From a virus: 46,249 nucleotides of DNA. Made by a program: the position numbers and the translations under genes. Every line of letters starts with the position of its first letter. Position 1 is the stretch's first letter. Under the pieces are notes generated by a model that was given only the letters and a program-made list of their open reading frames with translations, searched no databases and had not been told where the DNA came from. Positions 10,303-39,300 of this stretch are shown piece by piece. The DNA is taken from the IMG/VR virus record IMGVR_UViG_3300037191_001380, positions 1 through 46,249 of that record; one strand, written 5' to 3'.

Positions 10303-11895
10303 ATGGCTGATAGAGATAACGGTAGAAATGCGTTCAGAAAAGGACAAAGAACAAGTACGATCCACGAGGATCCTACATACTTGTCTTTTATGATTTTATT
10401 CCACGGAGATGATAGATCTTCAGTGGCACATTCTCCCCTACTTAATGGTGAAGCTAATTCTTATCTAAGAAATGTTGTTCGAACTGACCTTGGTGACATA
10501 TATGCTGATAATTTAGCAGTGTTTAAAAGAGTATTATTAAAGGTTAATAGAGAAATGCCTTGGTTTTGGCAAGGACTAAAAGGAATGGAAGCTGCAATGA
10601 ATTATGGTGATTTTAAAGAACCATGGAGAGGAGCTGAAAAACCACAGTTAGAAATTGAATGTTTAGAAGAGAACGTAGAATTAACTGCGATCGGACTTAT
10701 GGAATTATATAGAAATTCTTGTTTCGATTTACAGAGATATGTAGAAATAGTTCCAAAAAACTTAAGAGAGTTTTCCATGGACATTTATATGTCAGAGGTA
10801 AGAACATTCCAAAAAGACACAGATGCTAGAAACTTAGGTATTACAGACAATCCTGATTCTAGAATTACTTCAGCTGGATCTGATGCTAAATCGGTAAAAG
10901 ATATACACCCTATTTTTAGCAGTAATATAGTACAACCAGGTTCTGCAGATTCTAGACCATTTGTAGCATTAAGATTTACACATTGTGAATTTGATATGAA
11001 CTCAGTTGCAGATTATTTTGCAGACATGAGTAAAAATCCGGAAAAGAAAAGACCAACCATTAAAATAAATTGGGGAACTTGTACGCCATTAGCTTCAAGA
11101 TTAGGTCCTAATGTATTTAACGAAAACAGAGATGCTAATTCAGTAACTACAGGTCAAGTTACTAACCCAGCTTCTGATCCAAATCAAATACCATTGAATA
11201 AAGTTAATCCTAATTCCTCAGTGAAAGTAAGCTCAATGGATTCATTAACTAACGTACACGATGCTTCTGATCCTAGGGCAGAATCTATAACAGAAAGAAA
11301 AAAGATTGGACTTAAAGATCTAGCTAAAAATACAATAGGTAGTATTGTAGATGATGTTAAAGACACTGCAGCAGGTTTAGTAGCTGGAGTTACAAATGCA
11401 CTTGATAGTTTTAGCTTACAGCCAAACGGAATTGGTAATGTACATGGTACACAAATCGGTGGTTTTGCAGGTAATCTATTAGATAAAGCAGTTGGTGATC
11501 TTACAGCTAAGTTATTATTAGATAACGTACACGGTGCCGGAGGATTAGGTAGTATACAAGATGCTATTAATGGTGGTTTAATTAATGCCGTTGGTAATTT
11601 AATAACTGGTTCATTAGCAGGTGGCTCACAAGCTTCTGTTGGAATTGGCGGAGGTGGAGCTAGTGTTGGAGAACGCATACATGCAGCTGCAATCGATAGC
11701 ACACCAGATGGAAACTTAAATCAACAAGTACATAACCGGGTTGCTCAACCGCAAACAGGTCCTTTAAATCAAAAAGTATACGACCCAATTGCCCCGGTAC
11801 AACAAGGTCCAATAAACGATAATGTACACGGAGGTGTTAATACAGGAGTAGACTCAACACCAGACGGGAACTTAAACAGCAATATACATGAATGA
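10303..11895 (+). CDS. Tail-tube-like baseplate protein (gp48/gp54 type) with NxxVH repeat tail
   Basis: Residues 1-260 contain LSFMILFHGDDRSSVAHSPL, then MPWFWQGLKG, LEIECLEENVELTAIGLM and LREFSMDIYMSEVRTF. This order of strands with a large aromatic insert suits a tube-fold protein of the baseplate, such as T4 gp48 or gp54 that start tube assembly. The C-terminal 200 residues are different: Gly/Ala-rich with short recurring N-x-x-V-H-like motifs (near residues 317, 379 and 408 and clustered at 470-530) and the phrase DSTPDGNLN twice. It overlaps the spike gene by eight bases, which suggests they act together. Tube-fold assignment is moderate; the tail is unexplained. Confidence 0.6.
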   Translation: MADRDNGRNAFRKGQRTSTIHEDPTYLSFMILFHGDDRSSVAHSPLLNGEANSYLRNVVRTDLGDIYADNLAVFKRVLLKVNREMPWFWQGLKGMEAAMNYGDFKEPWRGAEKPQLEIECLEENVELTAIGLMELYRNSCFDLQRYVEIVPKNLREFSMDIYMSEVRTFQKDTDARNLGITDNPDSRITSAGSDAKSVKDIHPIFSSNIVQPGSADSRPFVALRFTHCEFDMNSVADYFADMSKNPEKKRPTIKINWGTCTPLASRLGPNVFNENRDANSVTTGQVTNPASDPNQIPLNKVNPNSSVKVSSMDSLTNVHDASDPRAESITERKKIGLKDLAKNTIGSIVDDVKDTAAGLVAGVTNALDSFSLQPNGIGNVHGTQIGGFAGNLLDKAVGDLTAKLLLDNVHGAGGLGSIQDAINGGLINAVGNLITGSLAGGSQASVGIGGGGASVGERIHAAAIDSTPDGNLNQQVHNRVAQPQTGPLNQKVYDPIAPVQQGPINDNVHGGVNTGVDSTPDGNLNSNIHE

Positions 11896-12604
11896 TAACG
11901 AATTATACAAAGATAATATCCGAGAGACTCATTGGCTCGGAGAGGTAGTTATTAATGAAGACCCGCTTCTTCAGGGCAGAGTACGAGTAAAGGTTTTTGG
12001 TAAATTTGATAAATTAACAGACGATGCTATTCCGTGGGCAACTCCTATGAATAGAGATCATGTCGGTGCACATTCAGTTCCTAGAGTTGGAGATATTGTT
12101 GCAGTTAGATTTGACAATGGAAACATATACCACCCAGAATACTGGTTTCAAGTAGATCAGAATGAAGATTTAAAAGGAGACATCTTAGAGAATTCAGATG
12201 CCCCTCATGATGTCGTAAGTCTAGTGTATGACGCGGAAAGAAATGTTAGGATATATCACTCACCAGAGGATGGTCTTGTCATAACGCGTGGTACTGGAGC
12301 TAAAGAGAGGCCTATCATTCAACTAGATGAAGAAGGAATTATTAAGATTTCAACAGATGCTAAAATATTTATGGACTGTGGTGATATATTTGTATCGAAC
12401 ACTGGAGAAGGTGGAGCAGATGAAACTGAGCCAGCAGTAAGAGGTCAATCTCTACAAGATTGGTTACAGGCTTTATTAGATGATTACAATGCACATATAC
12501 ACCCTACAGGAGTTGGGCCATCAGGTCCTCCAATGCCTCCTACGCCGGCAACCGTTGCAAAATTATCAAGCACACATATTAAGTATCAACAAAAGAATAA
12601 GTAA
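11888..12604 (+). CDS. Baseplate spike protein (gpV / gp5 OB-fold type)
   Basis: The N-terminal 100 residues form the OB-fold of phage spike proteins: WLGEVVINEDPLLQGRVRVK, AIPWATPMNR, HSVPRVGDIVAVRFDNGN and the PEYWFQ ending. Residues 125-170 are a short beta region, and AHIHPTGVGPSGPPMPP near 215 is typical of gpV-like spikes. By family knowledge three copies make the needle under the hub that pierces the outer membrane. At 238 residues it has no T4 gp5-type lysozyme domain, so any cell-wall lysis activity must lie in another protein. It overlaps the tube-like gene by eight bases. Confidence 0.82.
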   Translation: MNDNELYKDNIRETHWLGEVVINEDPLLQGRVRVKVFGKFDKLTDDAIPWATPMNRDHVGAHSVPRVGDIVAVRFDNGNIYHPEYWFQVDQNEDLKGDILENSDAPHDVVSLVYDAERNVRIYHSPEDGLVITRGTGAKERPIIQLDEEGIIKISTDAKIFMDCGDIFVSNTGEGGADETEPAVRGQSLQDWLQALLDDYNAHIHPTGVGPSGPPMPPTPATVAKLSSTHIKYQQKNK

Positions 12605-12606
12605 CT

Positions 12607-14499
12607 ATGCCTGCACTGTGGCCCAAATTTATACCGGATCTGGCAAATACAATAACAAGCCAGCAGTTTACTAAACCGGGAGGTGCGATACTTTCATATC
12701 CACTACCATCGGTCGGGACTGATCAAGTGCCTATCTTTCCTCCAGGCGGAGATTTAATTAAATCAATTACTCCTGGAAATCCCCTTAATGCACAATTAAC
12801 TACGAATCCTGCTGGAATGATAAATGCAATTAATCTTGCACCATTAAGCGGGCGTTATGATTTTGGTAAAGCAGTTGCCGAACATTATATTGATGCAGTA
12901 AAAGGTTCGCCGAAAGCACAGACTCCATTTGGAGCTTTCCATGCTAATAATGGTCTTGCTGAATTAATCTTAAAAGAAGGTTATGGTATTTGCTTTGAAA
13001 GATTATTAAAAGAGGGGGACATACCTTTACAAGATCAATATGATGAAGATGGTAATCTAACTCAAATGGGCAAAGAGTCTCATCCTGCGTATGCTGATTT
13101 TTGTCCGGATGTTGATGCTCCACCAGATGCAGAAGCTTTGGCTGAGATGGAAAAAGATAATGCTAAAGCTTTTAATAAGTTTGTTGAAGACAATAAAACA
13201 GAATACAATTTATATAAATATAAGTTCTTTCAATTTCCATGTCTTTATGGAGGAGAGTCTCAAGTTGAAATTGAACGTATTTTTGCAGCTAGATTATTAC
13301 AAAAATTTGAAAGAATAACCAATACGAATACTAAATGGGAATTCTATATCTGGGCAGCGTGTCTTGGTAAAGACAATTATAGTAACTCTAGTGGTTTTGG
13401 AGGCGGGTGGTCAGGAATGCCTTATCCAAATATAAACTCACAGGCAAAATCAGATATTACTGCTGCTGGATATGATTGGAGAAAACTAGCAGATAATGTA
13501 AGTAAGTTAGTTACTGATGCTATTTTAGAAGTACATCCTGAAAGAGAAAGTAATACATCTCCGTTTTTTAACACTTCTGTTTTAAAGAGAAGAATTAAAG
13601 CCAATCCTTCCGGACCAATTACATTACCACATGATTTAGAATGCCCGCTAAATGAATATAAGATGCAAGTGCCTTATGATTTTGAACACAACCCACCAGA
13701 AAATCCAAGTGCTAGGCCGAAAGTTTTAACATCAAATGTTGTGGCTACTTTTAGTTGGTACCCAAATATGAGAACTGGTTCATTTAGTATAAGTAATGCA
13801 ATGGATCCTCCGATAATCACGAATGCTCCTAAATTTATTAAGTCAAAAAATTGGGTCAAATCTAAATACGAAAATATTGAGTGGAAACTTAAATGGAGAA
13901 AGGTACCTGAGGCAAAATTAAAAGCAGCCTCAACTAAGCCGGATGCTCAGGCCGCATTTTTTGAAATTGATCCTAAACCAGAAGGTACTCTATTTAAGTT
14001 TGAATTTCATAAAGCCATGTGTGCTAAAAACGCAGCAGCTGGTTGTGAAGAAGATGCAGCAGTAATCGATCACCCATTTGAAGCAAGTGGAACTTTACCG
14101 CCGAAAGACAATGGAGAACCCGGGGATGCATTTGAGGGAGATCCCTATGAAATGATGGCAAAAGTAACAATAGCATATTGGTATGCTTGTATTGTTAAAC
14201 CATTTGGACCAATGCCAGCAGCTCTACCTGCGATGATTAATGCACCATTGGGAGGACTTTACATTCCGATATATTATGGAAGTGCAAATAGACTTGCTAA
14301 TAATTTAAGAAAGGCATGGTCTACAGGAAAGACGTTTAGTGTAATACCTGCACTTCAGCCACCAGCACTTGCAACATCAGCTGCAGTTGCCGGGGCTTAC
14401 GCATTACACTTATTAGAATTTAAGCTATTGTATCTTGGTGGAATACCGACACCAGTTGGACCAGTGCCGATGGTTGGTTTTGTACCAGTTGTATTTTAA
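12607..14499 (+). CDS. Putative virion protein following the spike, 630 residues
   Basis: I do not recognise this family. The first 70 residues are Pro/Gly-rich (PGGAILSYPLPSVGTDQVPI). The middle is mixed, with an acidic helix (AEALAEMEKDNAKAFNKFVE) and several Cys and Trp residues. The C-terminal 100 residues are hydrophobic and Pro/Gly/Ala-rich (FGPMPAALPAMINAPLGGLY) and end in VGFVPVVF. This could pack against the spike tip or a membrane. It follows the spike gene by two bases and ends the first baseplate block. Its stop overlaps that of a convergent minus-strand gene at a TTAA. No lysozyme or peptidase motif was seen. Confidence 0.55.
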   Translation: MPALWPKFIPDLANTITSQQFTKPGGAILSYPLPSVGTDQVPIFPPGGDLIKSITPGNPLNAQLTTNPAGMINAINLAPLSGRYDFGKAVAEHYIDAVKGSPKAQTPFGAFHANNGLAELILKEGYGICFERLLKEGDIPLQDQYDEDGNLTQMGKESHPAYADFCPDVDAPPDAEALAEMEKDNAKAFNKFVEDNKTEYNLYKYKFFQFPCLYGGESQVEIERIFAARLLQKFERITNTNTKWEFYIWAACLGKDNYSNSSGFGGGWSGMPYPNINSQAKSDITAAGYDWRKLADNVSKLVTDAILEVHPERESNTSPFFNTSVLKRRIKANPSGPITLPHDLECPLNEYKMQVPYDFEHNPPENPSARPKVLTSNVVATFSWYPNMRTGSFSISNAMDPPIITNAPKFIKSKNWVKSKYENIEWKLKWRKVPEAKLKAASTKPDAQAAFFEIDPKPEGTLFKFEFHKAMCAKNAAAGCEEDAAVIDHPFEASGTLPPKDNGEPGDAFEGDPYEMMAKVTIAYWYACIVKPFGPMPAALPAMINAPLGGLYIPIYYGSANRLANNLRKAWSTGKTFSVIPALQPPALATSAAVAGAYALHLLEFKLLYLGGIPTPVGPVPMVGFVPVVF

Positions 14500-14897
14500 C
14501 CCCAATCTTTTTCAAACGCGTACCAATGGTCTGCACCCGCACAGTCACGACATGCATCAACCACGATAGTTACCTTATCTTCAGTAGTTAAGGTCTTTAA
14601 AACGGCTGGTATGTGCATCTCTATCAACTCATCGCTATCAAGGTAAGTAGAACAATGTCTTGCAAGTGCACTGATAAGTCTATATGCATTATTTTCAACC
14701 TCTTCGAATCGATGGCCTCGGTGATAATCATTTGTACTATCTTCAGTGATTAATTCAAAGATCTTATCTAGACCTAATAAATCTCTAACTTCTTGACAAA
14801 CTTCAACTATTGCGTCTTTGTGTTTAAGAACAGCCTGGTAGCCGTTACCACCAACCCCATTACTTTTAACTTCGCTTACTTTAAATTGTTTAATCAT
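14496..14897 (-). CDS. Hypothetical protein, minus strand, 133 residues
   Basis: One of only two supported genes on the minus strand. It is acidic with a mostly helical character (IVEVCQEVRDLLGLDKIFEL) and ends in VVDACRDCAGADHWYAFEKD, where a CxxC pair and a histidine could bind a metal. Its stop overlaps the stop of the convergent virion gene. It lies 19 bases after the other minus-strand gene and is probably co-transcribed with it from the divergent region at 15103-15307. The opposite orientation suggests expression at a different time from the baseplate genes, perhaps early. Function unknown. Confidence 0.7.
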   Translation of the reverse strand: MIKQFKVSEVKSNGVGGNGYQAVLKHKDAIVEVCQEVRDLLGLDKIFELITEDSTNDYHRGHRFEEVENNAYRLISALARHCSTYLDSDELIEMHIPAVLKTLTTEDKVTIVVDACRDCAGADHWYAFEKDWG

Positions 14898-15307: not shown

Positions 15308-16603
15308 ATGTCAGACAAAAAAAGACGAAGAATTAATGATTCTTCAGCCCAAGCGGCAAACAAAGTTGAACTAGTTGAAACAGTTCAAAACCCAAACAAC
15401 CAGGAAGAAGTAAAAGTAGAAACAAAGATCGAAGATAACGGTCCGGACTTTTTACTACCAGACGGAGAATTCGATTGGGACGCGTTCGAGGCAACCTGCC
15501 CAACAAGAACGAGAAAAGCAAATCCACATATTAAAACCAAAAACGGAGATAAAGTATTCTCTCGTGAGTCTTATGCTCAAGAGTTATATGATCTCATGGA
15601 AGGTACTAACGCATGTGATATCATACCTCAATTATTTATAGGTGAGATCCATGAAGGTATTATTTATGCAGTGGACCAAGAATATATCACGGTAGATATT
15701 AAATATAGAGAATTAGTCTATATTAAAGCTGGTAAAGAATCTGAAGAGGTTAGGCAAATGCTTCCAGGGCAAGAAACTTCTGTTTTAATTACAGAAACAA
15801 AAGGTACATTAACTGGAACTATCACAGGAGGAGTTAAACACAAAACATTCATGGATCTTAGAGATGCTATCGAAGAGGGCAATACAGCCTGGATCGGTAC
15901 TGTTAATAACATGATTGAAAATGGTGGTTATATTGTAAAAGTACAAGGTGTAGATTGCTTTATGCCAGGATCACTTGCAGGTATTAATAAATTATCGGAC
16001 TTTAGTTCTATCGTAGGAGAAGAACTTTATGTAGTTCCGGTAAGTTTCTCACCAGAAAGAGGTACGTTAGTAGTTTCACATAGAAAATACTTACAAGCTT
16101 TAATCCCAACTGCAATTAATGAATTAAAAGAAACTCTAGACGAACCTAAACATGGTTTAGTAACAGGTACTGCAAAGTATGGTGTGTTTGTTGAATTCAA
16201 TAAATGTTTAACAGGAATGATTCATACAAATGAACTTGACGAAGCAACATCTGTGAAATTCAAAGCTAGAGAAATTAAACCAGGTGAACCAATTGAATTC
16301 TTTGTAAAAGATATTATTACTAATAATAAGATTACATTAACTCAAAAGGAAAATACTTCGGTAAATCCTTGGATTAATATATCTACTAGGTATTCAATAC
16401 CATCTGTTGTTAAGGCTAAAATCAAGACTAAAAAGGAATATGGAGTGTTTGTAAACATCGAAGATGGTGTTACTGGATTATTGCATATTAGTGAATTACC
16501 AGGTGATATATTAGATACTTATAGAGTTGGAGATGACATTGAGGTGCAAATCACAAGGATTGATGAAGACTCAATGAAGGTCTTTCTTAAGCTGCCCCAA
16601 TAA
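15308..16603 (+). CDS. Four-S1-domain RNA-binding protein related to ribosomal protein S1
   Basis: Residues 1-100 are a basic start then an acidic, probably flexible extension. Four S1-type OB-folds follow at about 110-178, 193-262, 281-348 and 364-431. The last two are the clearest: TGTAKYGVFVEFNKCLTGMI then H, and TKKEYGVFVNIEDGVTGLLH then ISELP, with VGDDIEVQITRID. This is the repeated-domain layout of bacterial ribosomal protein S1, which binds mRNA leaders and brings them to the 30S subunit. Bacterial S1 usually has four to six domains. The protein ends right after the last domain. Likely role, by inference: binding phage mRNA or replacing host S1. RNase E/PNPase-type nucleases carry single S1 domains with catalytic domains, which are absent here. 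Confidence 0.85.
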   Translation: MSDKKRRRINDSSAQAANKVELVETVQNPNNQEEVKVETKIEDNGPDFLLPDGEFDWDAFEATCPTRTRKANPHIKTKNGDKVFSRESYAQELYDLMEGTNACDIIPQLFIGEIHEGIIYAVDQEYITVDIKYRELVYIKAGKESEEVRQMLPGQETSVLITETKGTLTGTITGGVKHKTFMDLRDAIEEGNTAWIGTVNNMIENGGYIVKVQGVDCFMPGSLAGINKLSDFSSIVGEELYVVPVSFSPERGTLVVSHRKYLQALIPTAINELKETLDEPKHGLVTGTAKYGVFVEFNKCLTGMIHTNELDEATSVKFKAREIKPGEPIEFFVKDIITNNKITLTQKENTSVNPWINISTRYSIPSVVKAKIKTKKEYGVFVNIEDGVTGLLHISELPGDILDTYRVGDDIEVQITRIDEDSMKVFLKLPQ

Positions 16604-16655: not shown

Positions 16656-17969
16656 ATGCAAAAGTTAAAAAGTAATTCAACAAGACAAGAAGTACTGAAT
16701 GCCAGTCAAATGGGCATCGAGTTCGAATTCTATTCTAACCTAGAACTGGAAGAGACTGTAAAGTCTGTATCTAAGCTCTTAAATAGAAAGATTCAACTAG
16801 AGGAGAAAGCCCATTCAGATTTCGTACCATCCGCAGATGTGTTTAAGATGGAACCGGATATGTCTGGTGGTAAAGGTTTAATTGAACTGGTAACAGGTCC
16901 AATGCCTTATAGAAGTGCTAGATTAGTTATTATGAAAATGTTAGGGTGGATTCGTGAAAACGGGTACACATCTGATCGAGCATCGATCCACCTAAACATG
17001 TCATTCAAACCAGAATATTTAGAAGATCCTAATATGATTCAGCACATGGATGTGTTGAAATTCATACTTGAGTTTGATGAAGCTAGGGTATATAAGTATT
17101 TCCCTACTAGGGAAGATTCTACCTATGCAAAGTCTGTTAAATGGATTATGCCTAAACACGAAGCGTTCTACTATAACGCTGACTTAATTAATAAAGACAA
17201 CTTTACATTTGCTAATACTAAATATTATGGTATTAACTTTGAAAAGGCCCAAAGTAATTATTTAGAGTTTAGATATATTGGCGGTAAAGATTATGAAAAG
17301 AGGCAAGAAGATATTCTAACATTAGCTGATGTGTTTATTATGGCTATATGGAGATCTTGTAGAGATCCTAAGTTCAGCCATGCTAATAAAATTGAATTAC
17401 AACGTATCTTAAGAAAGAATGAACCTCTAATGGCGATGTTAAGAGATTACACTGCTGTAAATAAACATTGGCCGAAGATAGATATACTAGTTGATTTACA
17501 AGATCATCCTACTATCATTGGTGTACAATGGGATAGATTTAAACATAAAGTACTAGAATTGCTATCAAACGGTACTATGATAGAAGGAATTATTAACTAC
17601 GATTCAGATTATTCAACAGTCCAAGTTAAAAATGGTAAGTTTGAAAGTGCTTATTTATTAAGCGGATTTGAGTTTGTTGATTGTGAATTATCAGGTAATA
17701 TAGAAAATAGCGCAATATATGGAGGTGAAGTAAACGGGGCACAAATCCTGAGATCACAAATATATAAAGGGTGCACAATAATGGATTCAAAAGTAGAATC
17801 TTGCTTCGTGCACGGAAGTGTAACTATAAAAAACAGTTTTGTCTTTGGAAGAGATGGTATCTTTAAAGGTAGAATGGAAGGTGGAATATTTAGAGAAGGC
17901 GGAGTTGGACCACATGCTAGATTCTCTGATGAGACTGAAGTTGTGGTAAGTAAAAAAATAAAATCATAA
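16656..17969 (+). CDS. Putative amidoligase (glutamine-synthetase fold) with beta-solenoid-like C-terminus
   Basis: Residues 1-300 carry motifs of the putative amidoligase family: GIEFEF (20-25) with acidic E22 and E24 as likely metal/ATP ligands, IELVTGPMPY (76-85), ASIHLNMS with H112, and YLEFRYIGG with E204 and R206. By family knowledge these are ATP-dependent enzymes that join an amine to a carboxylate, making peptide-like or glycan-linked amides. Residues about 315-420 are a different module of short alternating repeats (FESAYLLSGFEFVDCELSG, NIENSAIYGGEV, CTIMDSKVESCFVHGSV) that look like a beta-solenoid. The substrate is unknown; tail protein, cell-wall peptide or host protein are options. 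The gene lies between the S1-like gene and baseplate genes. Confidence 0.72.
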   Translation: MQKLKSNSTRQEVLNASQMGIEFEFYSNLELEETVKSVSKLLNRKIQLEEKAHSDFVPSADVFKMEPDMSGGKGLIELVTGPMPYRSARLVIMKMLGWIRENGYTSDRASIHLNMSFKPEYLEDPNMIQHMDVLKFILEFDEARVYKYFPTREDSTYAKSVKWIMPKHEAFYYNADLINKDNFTFANTKYYGINFEKAQSNYLEFRYIGGKDYEKRQEDILTLADVFIMAIWRSCRDPKFSHANKIELQRILRKNEPLMAMLRDYTAVNKHWPKIDILVDLQDHPTIIGVQWDRFKHKVLELLSNGTMIEGIINYDSDYSTVQVKNGKFESAYLLSGFEFVDCELSGNIENSAIYGGEVNGAQILRSQIYKGCTIMDSKVESCFVHGSVTIKNSFVFGRDGIFKGRMEGGIFREGGVGPHARFSDETEVVVSKKIKS

Positions 17970-17970
17970 G

Positions 17971-18813
17971 ATGAGTGAAATTAGAAGTGGCAATCAGAAT
18001 AACTTAAACGCCGGACGTAATTTTGGCGATAGCTGTTTAAATGCTTTCCTAACAGAACTAGGTGATGACTTAACAGGGGCTTGTATGGTTCCGGTTAATT
18101 TACCGCAAAGAGAAATACTTAATATAGTTACAAGAGCTAAGAAATGGTTCTATAAAAACTATGAAGATTCAGTATCTGAAAATTACTATCATATTCCTAA
18201 CTCTGCATTTAAGTCAGCTTACTTTAAAGCTAATAGAACATTAAATCTACCAAACGCAAGTGTTGATGGATCTGGTTCTGTATTTTCAGTTTATGGAGTA
18301 CATGATATTAAATCTGGATGGGGCGGAACTGGCGGAGGAATGGATATTAGATTTGAAGCTGGTGGAGACTTTGGTTTAGAAAAGATGTTATTTAGAGGAA
18401 TGTATGAAGGATCTGGGCCTGCTGAATCAGCACAAGAACTAGAATATTACGTATTAAATCAGTCTTTAGCTGACATGGCAAGACAGATTATGAATAACCC
18501 AATCTCTTTTAATTACTCTAGACTTACTGGAGAGTTAAAGATTATGGGAGACACTCCGAAGGGAGATGTGATACTTGATGTGTACGAAACAATTCCGGAT
18601 TGTGCACTATTTGACGACGAAATCTTTTTTAGATATTGTTCTGCTAAGATTAAGCAATCACTAGGCGCTAAGCTTGGTATTTTTAAATTTGCATTACCTG
18701 GTAATGTAGAATTCGACTACGACGCAATAAAAGACATGGGAGACACCGAATTAGAGTCAATTGTTGAAGAGATAAAAGGAGACGAAGGAGTGGACTGGAT
18801 GTTTCATTCATAA
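17971..18813 (+). CDS. Putative virion protein before gp25, 280 residues
   Basis: This follows the amidoligase gene by one base and precedes gp25 by 21. The segment PQREILNIVTRAKKWFYKNY, then EDSVSENYYHIP, resembles N-termini of neck or tail-connector-type proteins in large phages, but this is recollection rather than a firm match. The middle is Gly-rich (SGWGGTGGGMDIRFEAGGDF), and the C-terminal half has an ordered beta/helix mix ending in an acidic tail (ELESIVEEIKGDEGVDW). No catalytic motif. A structural role is likely from its place in the gp25-gp6-gp7 group. Confidence 0.5.
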   Translation: MSEIRSGNQNNLNAGRNFGDSCLNAFLTELGDDLTGACMVPVNLPQREILNIVTRAKKWFYKNYEDSVSENYYHIPNSAFKSAYFKANRTLNLPNASVDGSGSVFSVYGVHDIKSGWGGTGGGMDIRFEAGGDFGLEKMLFRGMYEGSGPAESAQELEYYVLNQSLADMARQIMNNPISFNYSRLTGELKIMGDTPKGDVILDVYETIPDCALFDDEIFFRYCSAKIKQSLGAKLGIFKFALPGNVEFDYDAIKDMGDTELESIVEEIKGDEGVDWMFHS

Positions 18814-18834: not shown

Positions 18835-19191
18835 ATGGATTTTTATATAAAATACATAGGAGACCCAAATTATCAAACTGGTATTGTTCAAAACGTAAGT
18901 GAAGTTGAACAATTACTAGCTCAGATAGAAACCGTTCTTTTCACAAGAAAGAGGGATGTTTTAGGTACTCCAGGATTTGGTTGTAACTTAGAAGATATTG
19001 TTTATAGTTTAGGTCAGAATGAATTTCAAATCAAAAACGAAATACAGGAACAATTTGCTAACTACGTACCTCTTGCAGGTAAGTATCATGTTAGTGTAAG
19101 TGTTAAGTTTATGAAAGGTGAAGTTAGAGATGTGGCGTTCATTGATATTACTGTTAACAACGAGTATATAATCAAAGTAAATTTAAGATAA
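18835..19191 (+). CDS. Baseplate wedge protein gp25-like
   Basis: A protein of 118 residues, close to T4 gp25 (about 132). It has the GPW/gp25 pattern: VSEVEQLLAQIETVLFTRKR, LGTPGFGCNLEDIVYSLGQN, and a beta-rich end (VRDVAFIDITVNN). By family knowledge gp25 starts sheath assembly at the baseplate and is among the best conserved contractile-tail proteins. It precedes gp6 by seven bases, the usual order. The ATG is embedded in a TATAAATG context with no Shine-Dalgarno sequence. Confidence 0.85.
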   Translation: MDFYIKYIGDPNYQTGIVQNVSEVEQLLAQIETVLFTRKRDVLGTPGFGCNLEDIVYSLGQNEFQIKNEIQEQFANYVPLAGKYHVSVSVKFMKGEVRDVAFIDITVNNEYIIKVNLR

Positions 19192-19198
19192 ATAACTA

Positions 19199-21028
19199 AT
19201 GGCAGAACTAAAATTTTTAAGCACACTAAGAACATCGTCTAATCAAATTAAGACAGATGCTCGAACATATATCGCTAGAGTATACAAGCGTGCGAATACT
19301 CTATTTACTGAAGCATCGCCATTTGCTCAGATTATTTCTGTTATGGCAGAATTAGGTGAATTGGTTATGTTCTATATTGAAGACTCTTTAGTAGAGCAAA
19401 ACATATACACTGCACAACAGCCTGAATCTATCTATGGTTTATCAAGACTAACAGGACATGATGCGACCAGAGGCTTCGCAGCAACTGGTGAGATTGAATT
19501 TAGATGGAAAGTTGGAGCGGATCTTACTAAGATTGCAGGGACTGGATTAAACATTGATGCAAGATCAGAATTAAAATGTGAATTAAATGGATTAATTTAT
19601 ACGTTATTAACTTCACAAGAAAAGGTTAGATTAGAAAAGTCAAATAAGTATAATATAAAATGTGCAATCATACAGGGTAAGTTTGAAAAACAAACCTTTA
19701 CTGGAACTGGTGAGCCAATGCAGTCATATAATATACAAACAAGTGCTTTAACAGATCATTCTAAAGTTAGCGTTTCAGTTAACGGTGAGAAATGGACAAA
19801 GCACGATTCAATGTATGACATATTAAATCAAGAAAAAGCATATATCCTTAAGACTGGTATTTCCGGTGGTTTGGATGTTTATTTTGGAACTGGTAACTTC
19901 GGTGCAATACCTGGTGCTGGAAATTTAATAGAAATAGAATACGTTAAACATGCAGGATTCCAAGGAAACTTAGATGATGCACAAGATATTACCTTTAAAT
20001 GGGATGCAGAAGGTTCTGATTCTAACGGAGATGAATTTGATTTGAATGAATTCTTAGAACTTGCAGTAACATCGTCTCCTAAGATGGGGGCTGATAAAGA
20101 GTCTGTTGAGTTTACAAAACTATTAGCACCTCTAGCGTCTAAATCATACGTTCTAGCAACGCCAGATAATTATGAGTATTTCCTATCAAGATATGGAATG
20201 TTCTCGTATGTGGATGCTTACAACACGACTGATGATCAGTATTTAGATGATGATAATGTGATTTACATATTTGCAATTCCAGATGCTACAAGAAAATTAT
20301 TAGCAGAACAAGATTACTTCTCAATCCCAATTAGCGAAATGTTCTTCGATCAAAACGAATATGATAAGATGTCACAAGTAATTCAGGATAGTGGTCAACA
20401 AATGGTTACTACTGAAGTTATATTTGTAAAGCCTAAAGTTAGAAAGTACAGTATGGATATTAATATTAGATACTTTGAGGGTTATACAAAACAAGAAATA
20501 TTTACTAACGTTAGAAAGGCTGTAAGTGATTACATGCTTAATGTTACTAGAAGAGATAAATTACCTAAGTCGGATATTGTTTATATCCTAGAGACTATCG
20601 ATGGAATTGATGCGGTTAATATTAGATTTATATCTGAAACAGAAGAGACTGCAAGAAGATTAGGTTATTATGAATCTACAACAGTAACTGTTGTGCCACA
20701 GGAGCCTGTTGTTTTAGAAGAAATCGGGAACGGTAAACAGAAATATATTTTCTTTAAGCAAATAGAGGAAGTTAAGACAGTAAATGTTGATGCAACTACT
20801 GTTATTCCATATAGCATAGCAGGTTTAGATGAATGGGGAGATATTATTATGGACAAGGAAGAAGTTGCAGTCTTTAGAGGCGGATGGCTAGACAGAGATG
20901 GAGACGTTATCGTAGATGACGCATTGATGAATGCCGAAGCAGCACTTTCTGTTAATTTTGACGCAACGCCAGTACCTAGAACTATTTACACTAGAGTACA
21001 AGCTGGAAATAGAAAATCCACAAAATAA
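19199..21028 (+). CDS. Baseplate wedge protein gp6-like (baseplate J type)
   Basis: A protein of 609 residues, near T4 gp6 (660). The N-terminus (ARTYIARVYKRANTLFTEAS, MAELGELVMFYIEDSLVEQN, YGLSRLTGHDATRG) is typical of gp6, followed by the beta-rich core and a J-type C-terminal region (VRKAVSDYMLNVTRRDKLPK, DIVYILETIDGIDAVNIRF). Gp6 dimers form the inner ring of the baseplate that drives sheath contraction. Its neighbour gp25 upstream and gp7-like gene downstream match T4 wedge order. The stop overlaps the next ATG by one base. Confidence 0.85.
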   Translation: MAELKFLSTLRTSSNQIKTDARTYIARVYKRANTLFTEASPFAQIISVMAELGELVMFYIEDSLVEQNIYTAQQPESIYGLSRLTGHDATRGFAATGEIEFRWKVGADLTKIAGTGLNIDARSELKCELNGLIYTLLTSQEKVRLEKSNKYNIKCAIIQGKFEKQTFTGTGEPMQSYNIQTSALTDHSKVSVSVNGEKWTKHDSMYDILNQEKAYILKTGISGGLDVYFGTGNFGAIPGAGNLIEIEYVKHAGFQGNLDDAQDITFKWDAEGSDSNGDEFDLNEFLELAVTSSPKMGADKESVEFTKLLAPLASKSYVLATPDNYEYFLSRYGMFSYVDAYNTTDDQYLDDDNVIYIFAIPDATRKLLAEQDYFSIPISEMFFDQNEYDKMSQVIQDSGQQMVTTEVIFVKPKVRKYSMDINIRYFEGYTKQEIFTNVRKAVSDYMLNVTRRDKLPKSDIVYILETIDGIDAVNIRFISETEETARRLGYYESTTVTVVPQEPVVLEEIGNGKQKYIFFKQIEEVKTVNVDATTVIPYSIAGLDEWGDIIMDKEEVAVFRGGWLDRDGDVIVDDALMNAEAALSVNFDATPVPRTIYTRVQAGNRKSTK

Positions 21029-30336: not shown

Positions 30337-33300
30337 ATGGCTGCTATACAAATAGATTTAAGAGATACTGGTTACGAAACCCTAGCCCTGGCACTGACTG
30401 GAGCACAAAACGGTTCTACAAGCCCAACAACACCTTTATTTTATGATGATGCTGGCGCTTTCGGCCCTGGCACAAGCGTGTTTAGCGATAACACTATGCT
30501 GGCAGCATTCTCTACAACCTCAACAACACAATTTTGGATTGATGATGTTAATAAGAGAATTATACAAATTAATAATGGTTCTGTAAATAATACAGATCCT
30601 TTTATTAATTGGGATTGTAGTATGTTAACGGTGAACGATGGTGCTACTGGAACATCTATAAGCTCCTCGTGGACGCCTGGGCAAACTGGCAGTAACATAG
30701 TAGTCCGAGAAAATAACGGTACCGGAACGATAACAACTGTTTATGTTGATGGCATTACAGATTATCATTTCAGTTTTACTATTCCTACGGTTGGTTTTTT
30801 AAACTCCGGAAATGCTCAAGAATGTATTATCACAGGAGTGAATGTGACAACGACACTTGCTCCGGTGCCGAACTACTATGAGTTTGAACACCAAGGTAAT
30901 GCAGTGCAAGCTTATACTGAAGGCGCGACTTTATTATTCCCAACATTTACATTAAAAAGTACCAACGTACCAGATGGTACAACAGTTGGATATACAATAT
31001 CCGGATATGCCTCCGGGAGTGGTTTTGATGCTGCCGATATTTCATTAACCTCGTTAACTGGGGTTATTACAATGCAAAGTAACGAGGGCGAACTTACATT
31101 TACCCTAATAGACGATCAGCTAGCTGAAGGCGACCCTGGACTTGCAGGCTCAGAACTGTTTAGAGTTACATTAGATGCTCAAGATAGTTTAAATAATAGT
31201 ATAACATTAGCAGATTTAGACCGGAATGAATGGCCGCTAGCACGTAGTGTTGATCCGACGACAACAACGACGACCACATTACCAGAATATACATGTGCTA
31301 TAGCAGCACCGGTATTGGGTAATGGTAATGATGGAGATGTTATTGTTATAGCGAGTGCAATTACATGGGGAATACAACCTGATGCCAGCTCAACTTTAAC
31401 AATTAGCCCGGCTACTTATACTTATGGCCAGGCAACATACACTATTAGTGGAATTGAAGCTCCGGCTGGATATTCAAATACAGGGAATACTATATCATGT
31501 GATATTGATGGCACGACTGTTGATGAGGCAACAACGGCAACAACAATTGCAACTACTATAGCACCGACATTCGATTGTGACACAGAGACATTAACAATTG
31601 CCAATGGTGTGATTGGTGAGCAGATTACGGCTGCCGACTTTTCAACTGACGGTACTGCAACTTTTAATAGCATTACCAACTCTAATAATGATTTATATTT
31701 AGATGGCACCTTTATTTATACACTAACTGTTAACATACCTGCTGGCTATCTTAATTCTGGTACAATTGATTGTGATGTTTCAGTAACTGGTGGTTTAGGT
31801 GCTGCAAGTATTTCAATATCCGATAATGCAACATTATCATTTGGATCATCGGGCACACCGATTCAATCGAAAGCGGTAACTATTACCGGTAATGCAACGG
31901 CGTTTGATGTCGATGATGATATTACGTACAGTTCTTCTGTAGATTGGGTAAACGTAGTTCCAAATGCTTTTACGGTTAATGGAGGTGCTCTTAATATCAC
32001 ATGTAGTGCATACTCAGGAAGCACTGCAAGATCAGTTGATGTAACATTAGTACATCCAGAGGATAATACTAAAACATCTCAAACTTTTACAATAACACAA
32101 TCTGCTGGAAACCAGGCTCCAATTGGATCTGATTTAACTAAAAGCATAACATATAGCGGAACACCAACTGCAAACAATATTGATTTTAATGATGTCGCTA
32201 CAGGAGGATGGGCTGGCTCAAATGTTAACGACCCAGACGATGCTACTAATAGTACATTACAGGTAATAATCACAGATATTAGTGGTTTAACACTAGGTGC
32301 TAACACAAGCACACTGGTAGATACATCAGGTAACTCTAATGCTAGTATTACTAGTGCTCCTGATACATTAAACGGGATGGCTACTCCATTGACAATCCAA
32401 CTAACACCAGCACAGAGTCTTGGTGCTTCTGCGATACAAACAGCTAGTTTTAAATATAAACTAGACGATGGGAGTTCTGTTAGCAACCTATCACCAGAGT
32501 ATACTGTTACATTAACAATAAACCCTCCTGGTAATACAGCACCGACAATAAGCCCTGTAGCTAGAACTATTAGTGGAGCACAAACCAATGACGTCGCAGC
32601 TGCTATTAATATTGGACAATTTATTTCTGATGATAGCGATTCGGATGAAAACTTAGACCTTTTTTGGACTAATAGTGGAGGCTCAAGTACTACTCCGTTT
32701 TCAACGGTAACTCCTAATACAGGATCATACGGTTCTATCGCATATAATAGTAGTGGTTTATTAACATATACATACACTGGGACTTCACTTAACCCTAATA
32801 GCCAAGATGTAGTAGAGACCTTCTGGTATAAAGCACAAGATACTGATGGTGAGTACTCATCAGCAGCAAGTATAACTATTACAATGACTGCTTCGGCTAA
32901 CTCAGCCCCAGTAATTTCATTTAATGGACAAACTGGCACGACCGTAATAGAGAAGCAATTAAATCAATATGACACTGTAACATCTACATCAGATGTTATT
33001 ACTGCTACGGATCCAAACGGAGATACTTTAACATGGTCTTTCGCATGGGATTTCGCGACTAGTCAAAGTTCTCAGGCTGGAACTTTTACTCTTGATTCCG
33101 GTGGACAATGGACATATAGTACAGGTACATGGGTTATCTCTCCTGGAAGCACAGTACAAGAACGATTTGTGGTTACAGTCACTGACCAATACGGGATGAC
33201 TGATTCATATACATTGAAATTCTTCTCTACTGGAGTAACTTATATTAGTGGTATTACAGGATCTAATGACTTTAGATCTACTGCATCGCCAACATGTGAT

Positions 33301-36300
33301 GATGGTAGATCTGACACACTTTATTTAGATGCAGACGCAGGGGCTGATGATATCAATGGACTAAGCCCAAACCAGTATCTATACACAACCAACCTATTAG
33401 ACGGTGATGATGTTAAGAAAAACGCAGATATTACTAATGTAACAAATAACCCTTGGGTTTCAATTCAACAAGATATTGGCGGTGAGGTAATCATTAGAGC
33501 TGTAAAATTAGCAGGAGATGGTAAGATTATACAAGTCGTTAATTGCGAGACTAGTTTAGATAACGCATGGCCGATTGAAATTAATTTTTCTAATAAAACA
33601 AGTGAACTGTGTGCGCAAGAACTTACATATACCGTAAGTACTGCGACAGTTTATCAAAACGTATTAAATCCCGCGGATGGGGTTTTTGGATTAGCTGATG
33701 TAATTGCACTTGGTGGACAATTGTTTACGAGTCAGTATTATGCTAACCTACCAGAATATAGAAATCTTGATGATGGATTTGCAGCAGCATCTTTATGTGT
33801 TGCGACCGGATTCTATAATGATGGAACTAGACAAAACACAAATGGTGATTTCATATATTATGAGTTTGTTGAGAGTGGTGATGGTATCGGTGTATGGAAC
33901 GATAACGAAACAGACCCTCTTAATCTAACTAAGACATTTATATGCCCTGCGCTTATAGAATATGATACAGTAAGTATTAAGGCATATTATAGCCCATCTA
34001 ATAGAGTTGCGGTTGACGCAGCATGTCTTGCTGGGGAAGATAATCTAGTATTAGTAGATTTATATGCTAGATTAGAAGCAGGAGGAACATTACCGTATAC
34101 TACACACCAGGAAGGTTTAGAATATTTAATTAAAAATCAAATCTTAATATACACAACACATGCTGCCGCAAGTGAAGTTAATTATGATGGACTGTGGGAT
34201 AATACCACCTTTATTGCAGTTGATACTGCCGGTGGTGATTTAAACGATGATCCTTTTGGATATACACCTAGCCTTAGATTTGCAATATGGGATAATGAAA
34301 ATGATAGTGGTTATTTAGAACCGGAATCTCAAAGTTTTACGTATTCGTGGCTTGGAGTTAATACTAATGGAGAATTAGAATATGCTGGGAGCTCTACTAT
34401 ATTAGGAGATTGTAATACACAATTTAATAAACCGGATGGAAATAGTAATTACTGTTTAGGACTTCCAGGTGATTTATGTTTTTTAAATAATAACAATTCT
34501 AGAGTTAATGTATTCTATGCTTTTTATTCATGTGCAGCTAAGATTGAATCAGGTAAGCCGTATTGGTCTTTATATTTAACAGATGGACTGCATACTTACG
34601 CTGAAAATTCAACATCATATATTAAAAAACTAATAGATGAAGTAGGACCGGATAATAATAATGGTATCGCGATGAATATCGGAGGCGATAGCATGTTAGA
34701 ATGTGTTACTATTCAACATAAAATATTTGCAGCTAATTATGATGATGCTGTTAACATATTATTAGAGAGAGAAGAATACGGAACCGACATTAGAATTATT
34801 GAAATTAACCCAGTTGAATTAGGGTTTACAAGCGGAGCTGTAATTGAATATAGAGATAATTGTACAAGTTGTTTATTAGACAAACAAGACTTTTTAGAAT
34901 TTATTTTAGATGGAGTAGATGACGCTGAAATAATTAATAGATCTATTCCTAACTTTGATTTAGAAAAGAACTATGAATTAGATAATTTATCTAAACCGTT
35001 ATTAAGAACAAACCCTAAATTATCTACAAATGCTAAATTGGTAGTTAATAGCCTTGACAATATGTATATTGAGTCTATTGATGCTAGTAAAGAGTTAGCT
35101 GCTGTTGAATATAAAAAATGGTCTGTTAGCAAGGATGGCAAATGGGCTTATGATTTAGCTAAATTTTTTAATAGCAATAAAACTCCTTCAGATTTAATAT
35201 ACAATGTTAGATCTAGATTTTCAGATCTTTCAGTACAAGAGTCTTTTGAAAAGCAAATTGAAGAAGATTACCACTACGGAACTACATATAACTATTCTAA
35301 ATTACATAACGAGGATTTTAGAATGTTAGCTCCAATTTGGTTAGATAAAAACATACCTAGTAATTTCGTAATATTTAGAGTTAGTGATCCTGCTGCTATT
35401 TTAGACTTTGATACTCAAAGTAACTTTAATAACATGGATTCTATTCTAAAAAATAGTGAATTAATTAAAACGTTTGATTTAACTAGAAACTCTAACATCG
35501 GGACTTATATTAGAAACCATGTTCAATCTGAGTTATTTCCAAGCACGCCACTTAATGTAAACTTTAGTGAAAATGAAAGAACAAACTTTAATGGAATTGA
35601 TTTAACACAAGGTGGGTTTACAAACAAAGGTGAATACTTATTTGATGATTTTGTAAAACAAGATCAAACTATCATTAACGAAAACGATTTAATCACTGGT
35701 GGTTTTGAAAGAAATAAATTAGCATGTGCGAATCTTATTAACCTAGAATTCTTATTTGATGACGACGGCGCTGAAGACTATGCGGTAAATAGATATTTTG
35801 GATTATACGTAAATGATGTAGATTCTGGATATGGTACTTTAGAATCTAGTTTCGATGGACTACTTAAGTTTAAAACTTTAAATTCTTATATTAACACTGA
35901 TGCTAAGTCAGCAATACCTCCGACGGAATTGATGACATCTACTCCAACTCTAGGGTATGCACATATTTCTGATAACTTCTATAAGATTTCCCCATTATAT
36001 TATGATACTTCAAAATTAGAGGTACATGTTGAGGATTCGTCTAATACAATTCCTGCTGAAATTAAAATATCGGCAATTGGAACGTCAGTAGACACTACTA
36101 AGAATGAAGCTCCTGGAAGTGATTTTGTTAAACTTACAATTAACGGTTCACCGGCAAATAATGATAGAATATCAATATTCCCTTCTAAAGAACAAGACTA
36201 TAGAATTAAATTCATGAGATTTACTCCTGGAGAACAATTCGTATTAAGCCTTAACCTTGATGAACAAGTTGGAAATCAAAACTTTTTACTAACACTACAA

Positions 36301-39300
36301 GCTACTGCACAAGAAACCATTGACGATCAATTAGGAGGGTTACATAATATCGATCCTAATTTAAGATGGAAAGCAGATGGTGATGATATTTTATTTTATG
36401 AAGATAAAGTTACACTAAGACCTATAAGACCTAGCATCGCTCCATATACAAGTAATGGATGGACTTTGGCTAGAATTGAATATACACAAATACCATACGA
36501 TCTTTCGAACAATATGTTCTTTGGATCAGATGCTCTATTGGCTGGTCATTTTAATACTACTTCGTTTTCATCAAATGGTAGCAACGCTGAAATTGCAACA
36601 GCACTTACTAAATCTATTAACTCTAAAGAAAATGGATTTACTGCATTAACGTTTGATGGCGCAGATCACCTGTATATCAAGAACAACGTTGTTGGATATA
36701 GACTGATGCAGTCAGGGATCGCCCTGCCTAACAATAATGCAAATGACTGGGTAACTATTGAAGGAGACAACGAGATCAACTACACGCCTAATAATGTGTT
36801 AAGATTGCTACTAACAGGTAATACATCAGATGTATTCAAATCTAGTAAAATATACTACTTTACTGGTGGTAACTCTGCTGGTAAATCTGTGTTAGCATCG
36901 TTAGATTCTGTAGCCGATATTAATATTGGTGATTATTTAGAAACTAGTTCGAATGGTAATTACAATAAGGTTATTGATATTGTTGATGACATTGAAAGAT
37001 TACCTTTAAAATATAAGAAACTTGTATTAGAAAAGAAAAACACAATAGAGTCGGGAGAGGTAAATGCGTTTGCAGATAACTTAGTTAAACTAGGTTTATT
37101 TTCTGCATTTGATATACATGATATGAATTTTGATTTCTATGATACTTCTAATTCAGATTTAAAAGAATTAAAATACGAAACATCAGGTGAGATCAAATAC
37201 GAACCTGAGTTAAATAATAACAGTGACATATATCCTTTTGGAGAAAGAGAAAACACTGAGTATATAACAGCACCCGCGAGTTACTTTACAGGATTAACTG
37301 GAGTATTAGAAGATGAAATAACTGATACTTTTAATGAAGATTTTGTTGAAAGTGAATACGACAGATTAAAAGAAAACTATTTAAAAGAGAACTCTATAAG
37401 GAGTAGAGTTGTTCCTTCAATTAACAAGTGGGTATTAAAAGATACATTAACTGTTAGAGAACAACCATATTACTTAAACGCTAACGAGGCGTTTGGTAGA
37501 TCTAACTTCTCAGCAGATCTTTCTGTTGCAGGCCGAGATAGACTTGGAATGACTCATGAGTGGTTCTATATTAATAACTTACCAAAACATCTTAAAGAAA
37601 ACGTTGGTAATTCAACAACTCCTAATTATAGATTAAATGAATCATTTAGTTACCTTAACTTTATGGAAGGATTTGAGATGACTCCTGATATGTTTAAGGA
37701 TATTAATTATGATTACTTTGATAGATTCTTTGTAACCGAAGGATTTGAAACTAAAGGAGACAACAAATACAAAACATTCGTTAAGACTAATAGACAGAAA
37801 AAATATACATTAGTTAATGGCGGTAACAATACTGCGTTTGCCGATTCTATATTTAAAGGTCTAAAAGTAATATTCAAATCTAGAAAAGAATTTGCATCTG
37901 CAAGCCCTGTTGATTTTGTTAAATCATCTGAGTTTAATGGATATAGATTTAGTACAGTATTGAATGTGAAAACATCACAAGACTCGAATGGTATTGAGTA
38001 TGAAGTAATACAAAATAAGAAATTTAAGTATGTTGTGTTCTTTATCTCTCTAAGCCTAGATGATTTATGGGCAGATCAAACTTTAACTAGAAAGTTATTG
38101 TATGAGTTAAACCACTCGCTAATATGGAACAACGAAGAGGGTACATTTAAGTATTCTGATATTAAAGTTGATGGCCATTTAGATTTGGTAGGGGCTAATT
38201 TCTCAGATCCAGCTGGTGATAATTATTTAGTAGTACATGGTTTACCACATGGAGACGGAAGTGTGCCACAGTTCTTAGAACAAATTAATAAGAATGAAGA
38301 TGATGAATACGGAAGTATTATAGTAAATATAAACACTGCGTTTGGTCTTCAAAAAATACAATTAGATATTTCTAATGTAGGGAGCCAGTCTGAATTAATA
38401 CTTGCAAGACCTCCTCAGGATATTACTGATGGAAATGAAGTTCAAACGACGTTAGACAACTTACCAGGTTATTTACAATATAATGCTGAGTATATTTACA
38501 AAGGTGGAGGTATTAATGCATATAAATATATTTTAGAATCATTAGGTGCTCAAAATATGTCGACCATGTTATTAAGAAACCCTGATAATATTAAATACTC
38601 AACGGTAGAATTAGATGGTAGTATTGCTCTTAGTAAATTTATCATCCTTCTAGAAGATGGTGTTGAGATTATTAAGAAGTCTGAAATTAACACAGAAGTA
38701 GATGATGAGAAACCGGAATCGTTTAAATTATCATCCGGAAATATTGGCTATAACTTAGGGTTAACAAGAACGTATTATCCATTCTTAATTAGACATCACG
38801 GTGGATATACTATTGATACAACTCCGGTGGTAACATTTACAGACATATACGCACACATGAAAACAAATACTCTTCAAAACGCTTCGAATATCGCTGAGTT
38901 AGAATTAGAAGAGCAAATGTATAAACACTCGTTAACTAGCACTGAAGATATTCAATTAGCTAAAGATTATTACAAGAGATATAATAGATGTGGTGTTGCA
39001 TTCAACTTAGGATTTATTTATGATGATGGAACTCATGATTCTCAATGGGGTTATATTAAAAATCATTTCTATAGAAAAGTGAATGAATTCAAATCTAGTG
39101 GTGTTATTAAGCTATCGACATCTTCTGATAAGCCGCCTTTATATCCATTAATTGGTGAGGTTGCTATCGATAAGAAAGATGTTCACGTGTTTAAATCTTC
39201 ATGGGATAAAAACTATTATACTAGGGCTTTATCGGGCGACCTTACGGAACTCGTACCTGGTACATTTGAAACTAAAGAGGAGAGATCTTATTTAGCTTCA

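Follow-up and report, generated by a model that had tools for sequence, protein, structure and literature searches.

An amidoligase domain fused to a pentapeptide-repeat-type β-helix in the tail module of jumbo phages and megaphages

The window, a 46,249-nucleotide stretch of viral DNA (IMG/VR record IMGVR_UViG_3300037191_001380), contains within its tail module an intact open reading frame for a protein of 437 residues, which we describe here as an amidoligase/β-helix fusion. The strand opposite to this reading frame carries many stops, and the reading frame is a genuine gene. The gene, its two domains, and the surrounding genes are as follows.

11888 to 12604, + strand: baseplate hub protein, upstream of the amidoligase gene (phrog_37871 and phrog_430)
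15308 to 16603, + strand: ribosomal-protein-S1-like protein with multiple S1 domains (PF00575, E 1e-21; NCBIfam 30S S1 matches below the cut-off)
16656 to 17969, + strand: amidoligase/β-helix fusion protein (ATG start, 437 residues)
16656 to 17570, + strand: glutamine-synthetase-like amidoligase domain, residues 1-305 (PF12224; AlphaFold pLDDT 93.8; Foldseek matches to glutamine synthetases)
17571 to 17966, + strand: pentapeptide-repeat-type β-helix domain, residues 306-437 (Pfam and profile matches of relatives, structural model, periodicity)
17971 to 18813, + strand: neck or head-tail adaptor protein (phrog_211; PTm1 neck protein, Vibrio phage Ad2 adaptors)
18835 to 19191, + strand: gp25-like baseplate wedge protein (Pfam and PHROG matches)
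19199 to 21028, + strand: gp6 or baseplate J-like wedge protein (Pfam and PHROG matches)

The S1-like gene ends 52 nucleotides upstream of the amidoligase gene, and the neck gene, which among the loci compared is nearly always directly downstream, starts 1 nucleotide after it; further tail genes besides that of the hub protein lie farther upstream. An earlier note, made from the letters of the window, had given these same coordinates for the amidoligase gene and had placed it next to baseplate genes. The location among tail genes stands, but the immediate neighbors are the S1-domain gene and the neck gene, with the baseplate genes coming after. The S1-like protein, with its several S1 domains encoded inside a tail module, also has homologues in Lak and further megaphages, in most cases unlinked. 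An open reading frame of 133 residues (14496 to 14897, − strand) is reversed within the otherwise forward tail module; it matches no family and is kept in three of the representatives examined. The window also encodes a 3163-residue protein with BACON and cadherin-like domains (30337 to 39828, + strand) and a fiber-like protein with BACON and collagen-like repeats (39832 to 42222, + strand); these BACON-domain proteins, together with the nearest phages, hint at a Bacteroidota host.

The assignment of the N-terminal domain begins with the Pfam family Amidoligase_2 (PF12224), which matches the 437-residue protein with 22.9 bits against a curated cut-off of 22 (E 9e-5) and also matches 14 of 45 relatives at E≤0.01. 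No other Pfam family, the glutamine synthetase catalytic domain included, matches the protein at E≤1, and searches of PDB sequences gave no significant match with either the single protein or a profile of its N-terminal domain; phrog_33777, a family with no function assigned, matches as well. The earlier note had proposed an amidoligase from four motifs, all of which are present where it put them: GIEFEF at residues 20-25, IELVTGP at 76-82, IHLN at 111-114, and LEFR at 203-206. These motifs go beyond chance resemblance, as the PF12224 match is above cut-off and their key residues are conserved, and the family claim is borne out by agreement of the Pfam match with the fold and the catalytic motifs.

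A full-length AlphaFold2 model built from a 45-sequence alignment has a pLDDT of 91.7, and the domain of residues 1-305 modeled alone has a pLDDT of 93.8 and a pTM of 0.88. In Foldseek comparisons with the PDB, glutamine synthetases are the top matches (E 2-3e-4, probability 1.00, ∼10% identity), and γ-glutamylcysteine synthetases appear as weaker matches in the full-length search. It should be noted that the TM-scores of domain 1-305 to PDB entries are 0.35-0.41, so that the likeness to glutamine synthetase is at the superfamily level only and is not close. Comparison with BFVD places phage amidoligases at the top (probability 1.00), the majority of the named matches being amidoligases, and an uncharacterized 439-residue phage protein matches over the whole length with a TM-score of 0.86 and 21% identity. 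Structure prediction had been suggested as a check, with a fold unlike glutamine synthetase counting against the assignment; the closest matches of the model are instead glutamine synthetases and phage amidoligases.

Conservation was examined in an alignment of 45 diverse sequences of 29-92% identity, in which Gly20, Glu22, Glu24, Asp68, Gly72, Glu77, Lys135, Glu142, Arg152, Tyr157, Lys189, Asn194, Glu204, Arg206, and Gly209 are invariant. The motifs that contain the predicted active-site residues are located as follows.

16713 to 16727, + strand: Gly20-x-Glu22-x-Glu24 motif, predicted metal ligands (45/45)
16884 to 16898, + strand: Glu77-LVTG motif, Glu77 a predicted metal ligand (Glu77 45/45, Thr80 44/45)
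16986 to 16997, + strand: Ile111-His112-Leu-Asn114 motif, His112 a predicted metal ligand (41/45, Gln in 4)
17109 to 17111, + strand: Arg152, predicted phosphate contact (45/45)
17220 to 17237, + strand: Lys189-YYGI-Asn194 motif (Lys189 and Asn194 45/45)
17262 to 17273, + strand: Leu203-Glu204-Phe-Arg206 motif, predicted metal ligand and phosphate contact (Glu204 and Arg206 45/45)

Glu77 was absent from the residues listed in the earlier note, and His112, which was listed, is replaced by Gln in the four sequences that lack it. Loss of the acidic residues in close relatives, named beforehand as an observation that would speak against the assignment, is not seen, and they are retained to ∼30% identity. 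When the family was compared by profile with the annotated amidoligases of the three phages tf, phi14:2, and CW02 (E 5.5e-5), Glu77, the His112 region, Arg152, Asn194, and Glu204-Phe-Arg206 aligned with their counterparts. Pairwise dN/dS is 0.06-0.11 in three pairs, two of which are close to saturation at synonymous sites, and judged by these ratios the amidoligase gene is under strong purifying selection. The roles given to individual residues in metal and ATP contacts are predictions that follow established glutamine-synthetase chemistry. Together, the sequence comparisons and the structural model make the enzyme potential of the domain well supported, and it is very probably an active ATP-dependent carboxylate-amine ligase.

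Residues from about 306 to 437 are modeled as regular short strands. The proposal that the C-terminal repeats form a solenoid is real at the level of the family, and the solenoid can now be named as a β-helix of the pentapeptide-repeat type. Pentapeptide_4 of Pfam matches 20 of 45 relatives, and a profile of the C-terminal domain matches pentapeptide proteins in the PDB (McbG-like, MfpA, QnrB1, and designed β1) with E down to 1e-7. The family-average hydrophobicity recurs every five residues (lag-5 r=0.49, with none of 5000 shuffles as high), a recurrence that is absent from control stretches of the N-terminal domain. The identification is a family-level one: the window protein itself has no pentapeptide Pfam match, and the five-residue period is not significant in its sequence alone (p=0.32). 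The five-residue repeat and the profile match are shared with MfpA, QnrB1, and McbG-like proteins, but here the repeat domain is short and fused to an enzyme, and there is no hint of the gyrase binding or DNA mimicry associated with pentapeptide-repeat proteins. A limited literature search found no relevant report of the combination of an amidoligase with pentapeptide repeats.

The window falls within a large clade of jumbo phages and megaphages with T4-like tail genes, an assignment based on its relatives and on comparison of baseplate J proteins, the nearest of which outside the clade are those of Lak-B5, PTm1, PAU, and pT24; none of these four phages matches the profile of the amidoligase family. 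Searches of phage records with tblastn found a partial match in Salicola phage SCTP-2 and full-length relatives, 31-39% identical, in several uncultured megaphages: LR756500 (462 kb), LR756502, LR745206, LR756504, and LR756501/LR756503 (735 kb). The clade, which spans marine and freshwater giant phages, is related to records analyzed in the studies of Al-Shayeb et al. and of Michniewski et al. (PMC7162821, PMC9723777); as of 2020, no phage larger than the one of 735 kb had been described (PMC7162821). Bacterial and archaeal genomes yielded 18 pattern matches, none a true relative, so that there is no sign of a recent host origin.

Scans of IMG/VR found about 260 loci, of which nearly all have a single full-length copy; some of the loci come from contigs that overlap. 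A genome-wide PF12224 search of 12 records gave no match, and neither did its control; copies were therefore counted with the family's own profile, which finds one full-length copy per record in the megaphage records and long contigs. Linkage was assessed from loci anchored on the gp6-like gene and hence not chosen by the amidoligase; 80 were fetched, and in all 70 that have at least 2.7 kb upstream the amidoligase is present. The gene order is broken up in megaphages, where 45 of 52 loci have a homologue of a gene of the window tail module within 8.5 kb of the amidoligase and 37 have at least two. The S1-like gene is the immediate upstream neighbor in 203 loci, whereas in four of five megaphage records it lies tens to hundreds of kilobases away. 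The position in the tail module is thus a fixed trait of the clade, and the amidoligase is a core, single-copy gene.

The megaphage loci also gave several separate observations. Open reading frames flanking the amidoligase were inspected for a small Pup-like partner, but no family is constant among them, and no shared modifier protein is therefore proposed. In 14 of the 52 megaphage-group loci a neighbor of the amidoligase belongs to one family of 490-740 residues (for example, L206:9406-11040 and L208:9379-11094), with a weak DHH phosphoesterase match in one member and a FEKF/FESF-like tail in several. Among 926 distinct open reading frames of this group, 37 start with M[KR][KYHNT][LIVY][KRN]x[FY][ED] (MKYLKxFE type), and their carriers look otherwise unrelated; none is expected by shuffling, and none of 1301 open reading frames of the window's marine group starts in this way. 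These starts occur in loci L001-L005 and L190-L236 (for example, L003:16350-16778, L195:9467-9850, and L231:9356-9772) and look like an N-terminal address tag, with a layout that we take to be reminiscent of the T4 capsid targeting sequence.

The family shares PF12224, alignable motifs, and matching structures with the amidoligases of LUZ24, tf, CW02, and phi14:2. However, in tf, UFV-P2, CW02, and phi14:2 the amidoligase is part of a cassette near replication genes that includes some or all of a glutamine amidotransferase, an ATP-grasp protein, a cyclotransferase, and a second ligase, whereas the family of the window appears to lack such a cassette, has an added β-helix, and resides in the tail module. 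No glutamine amidotransferase (PF13522) was found in any of 21 family records, most of them fragments but five of 462-735 kb, and the same search finds the enzyme in all three cassette phages used as controls; the usual early host-modification cassette therefore appears to be absent. A cyclotransferase is present in 5 of the 21 records, unlinked to the amidoligase. The corresponding search for ATP-grasp proteins (PF13535) did not recover even the ATP-grasp genes that are annotated in the control phages. With respect to the glutamine synthetase superfamily, which provides the top structural neighbors in the PDB, the same type of metal/ATP site is predicted from established chemistry, but the identity of ∼10%, the TM-score of ∼0.4, and the lack of a glutamine synthetase Pfam match set the domain apart. 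The gp124 and gp125 proteins of Salicola phage SCTP-2, with phrog_33777, have the amidoligase domain's C-terminal half, motifs included, in common with the window family but are longer (606 and 647 residues), in tandem, and 21-28% identical; both SCTP-2 paralogues keep Glu22, Glu24, Glu77, His112, Glu204, and Arg206, although their identity is as low as 21-23%. These adjacent paralogous hypothetical proteins (L006:8924-12684, gp125-gp124) carry the amidoligase motifs unannotated and match no Pfam family. The enzyme thus belongs to a known superfamily, and its architecture, context, and partners differ from those of known phage amidoligases.

The presence of a glutamine-synthetase-type ligase with a putative docking domain of stacked repeats among tail genes suggests that a virion protein may well be modified, and the gene order favors a virion-related role, although the linkage to tail genes may in part be inherited gene order instead of function. 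The best explanation overall, which we hold tentatively and with a little less than even confidence, is an ATP-dependent ligase, docked by its β-helix, that amidates, glutamylates, or crosslinks a virion component; that the substrate is a virion protein we regard as a comparably close call. The ligase would be made as part of the tail/neck morphogenesis module and would act as a late enzyme. Glu22, Glu24, Glu77, His112, and Glu204 would hold divalent metals and Arg206, Arg152, and Lys189 the ATP phosphates; a carboxylate, either an Asp or Glu side chain or a C terminus, would be phosphorylated to an acyl phosphate, and attack by an amine would then form an amide or isopeptide bond. As there is no glutamine amidotransferase, ammonia derived from glutamine is a less likely amine than free ammonia, an amino acid, or the side chain of a lysine. 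The rigid β-helix may dock the enzyme on the protein that it modifies, for which neck, tail-tube, sheath, and baseplate proteins are the most likely candidates; the target would be modified during assembly, or the enzyme may ride in the virion. Mass spectrometry of phage SU10 detected its own glutamine amidotransferase and ATP-grasp products (PMC4281155), which is a precedent for enzymes of this kind in particles. A more specific and distinctly less likely form of this explanation is a virion-assembly ligase of giant phages that welds or tags tail or neck proteins by forming amide or isopeptide bonds; if welding were true, it would be an enzyme-catalyzed counterpart of the HK97 capsid crosslinks, which are self-catalyzed.

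The main rival reading is that the enzyme modifies the host cell wall or surface, namely peptidoglycan peptides, so that superinfection is blocked or entry eased, and it could do so either after infection or as a baseplate-borne enzyme. Such modification has been proposed for the amidoligase cassettes of phages of the phiEco32/LUZ24/RIO-1 type, and peptidoglycan modification against superinfection is the prevailing hypothesis for other phage amidoligases (PMC5498523, PMC10580990); the unlinked cyclotransferase of some family records is of the cassette type. We nevertheless consider it unlikely here, as the glutamine amidotransferase of the cassette phages is missing from all 21 family records searched, the gene is in the tail module and not beside replication genes, and the short cassette amidoligases (CW02 gp9, 266 residues) have no β-helix. 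The S1-like gene immediately upstream raises the further alternative of an intracellular protein target, such as the adjoining S1-like protein or the host ribosome, by analogy with RimK, which glutamylates S6; this appears quite improbable, since the S1 linkage is lost in most of the megaphage records and the tail linkage is often kept. It is also improbable, and if anything slightly more so, that the protein is a structural tail component in which an old ligase fold serves as a scaffold and enzyme activity is gone. A fixed place in the tail module and a β-helix typical of structural or docking parts would fit such a component, but the most conserved positions are the predicted catalytic ones, and their invariance to ∼30% identity speaks against a dead scaffold, in which some losses among these positions would be expected.

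Phage amidoligases are numerous and, to our knowledge, essentially uncharacterized, and most descriptions treat them as accessory genes for host modification. In the widespread clade described here, to which the 735-kb phage belongs, an amidoligase is a core gene of the tail module, present in single copy, and its occurrence without the usual ammonia-supplying partner and with a putative docking domain sets this family apart. Should its targets be virion proteins, the tails of these phages would undergo covalent maturation driven by ATP during their assembly, a step of which we know of no previous description.
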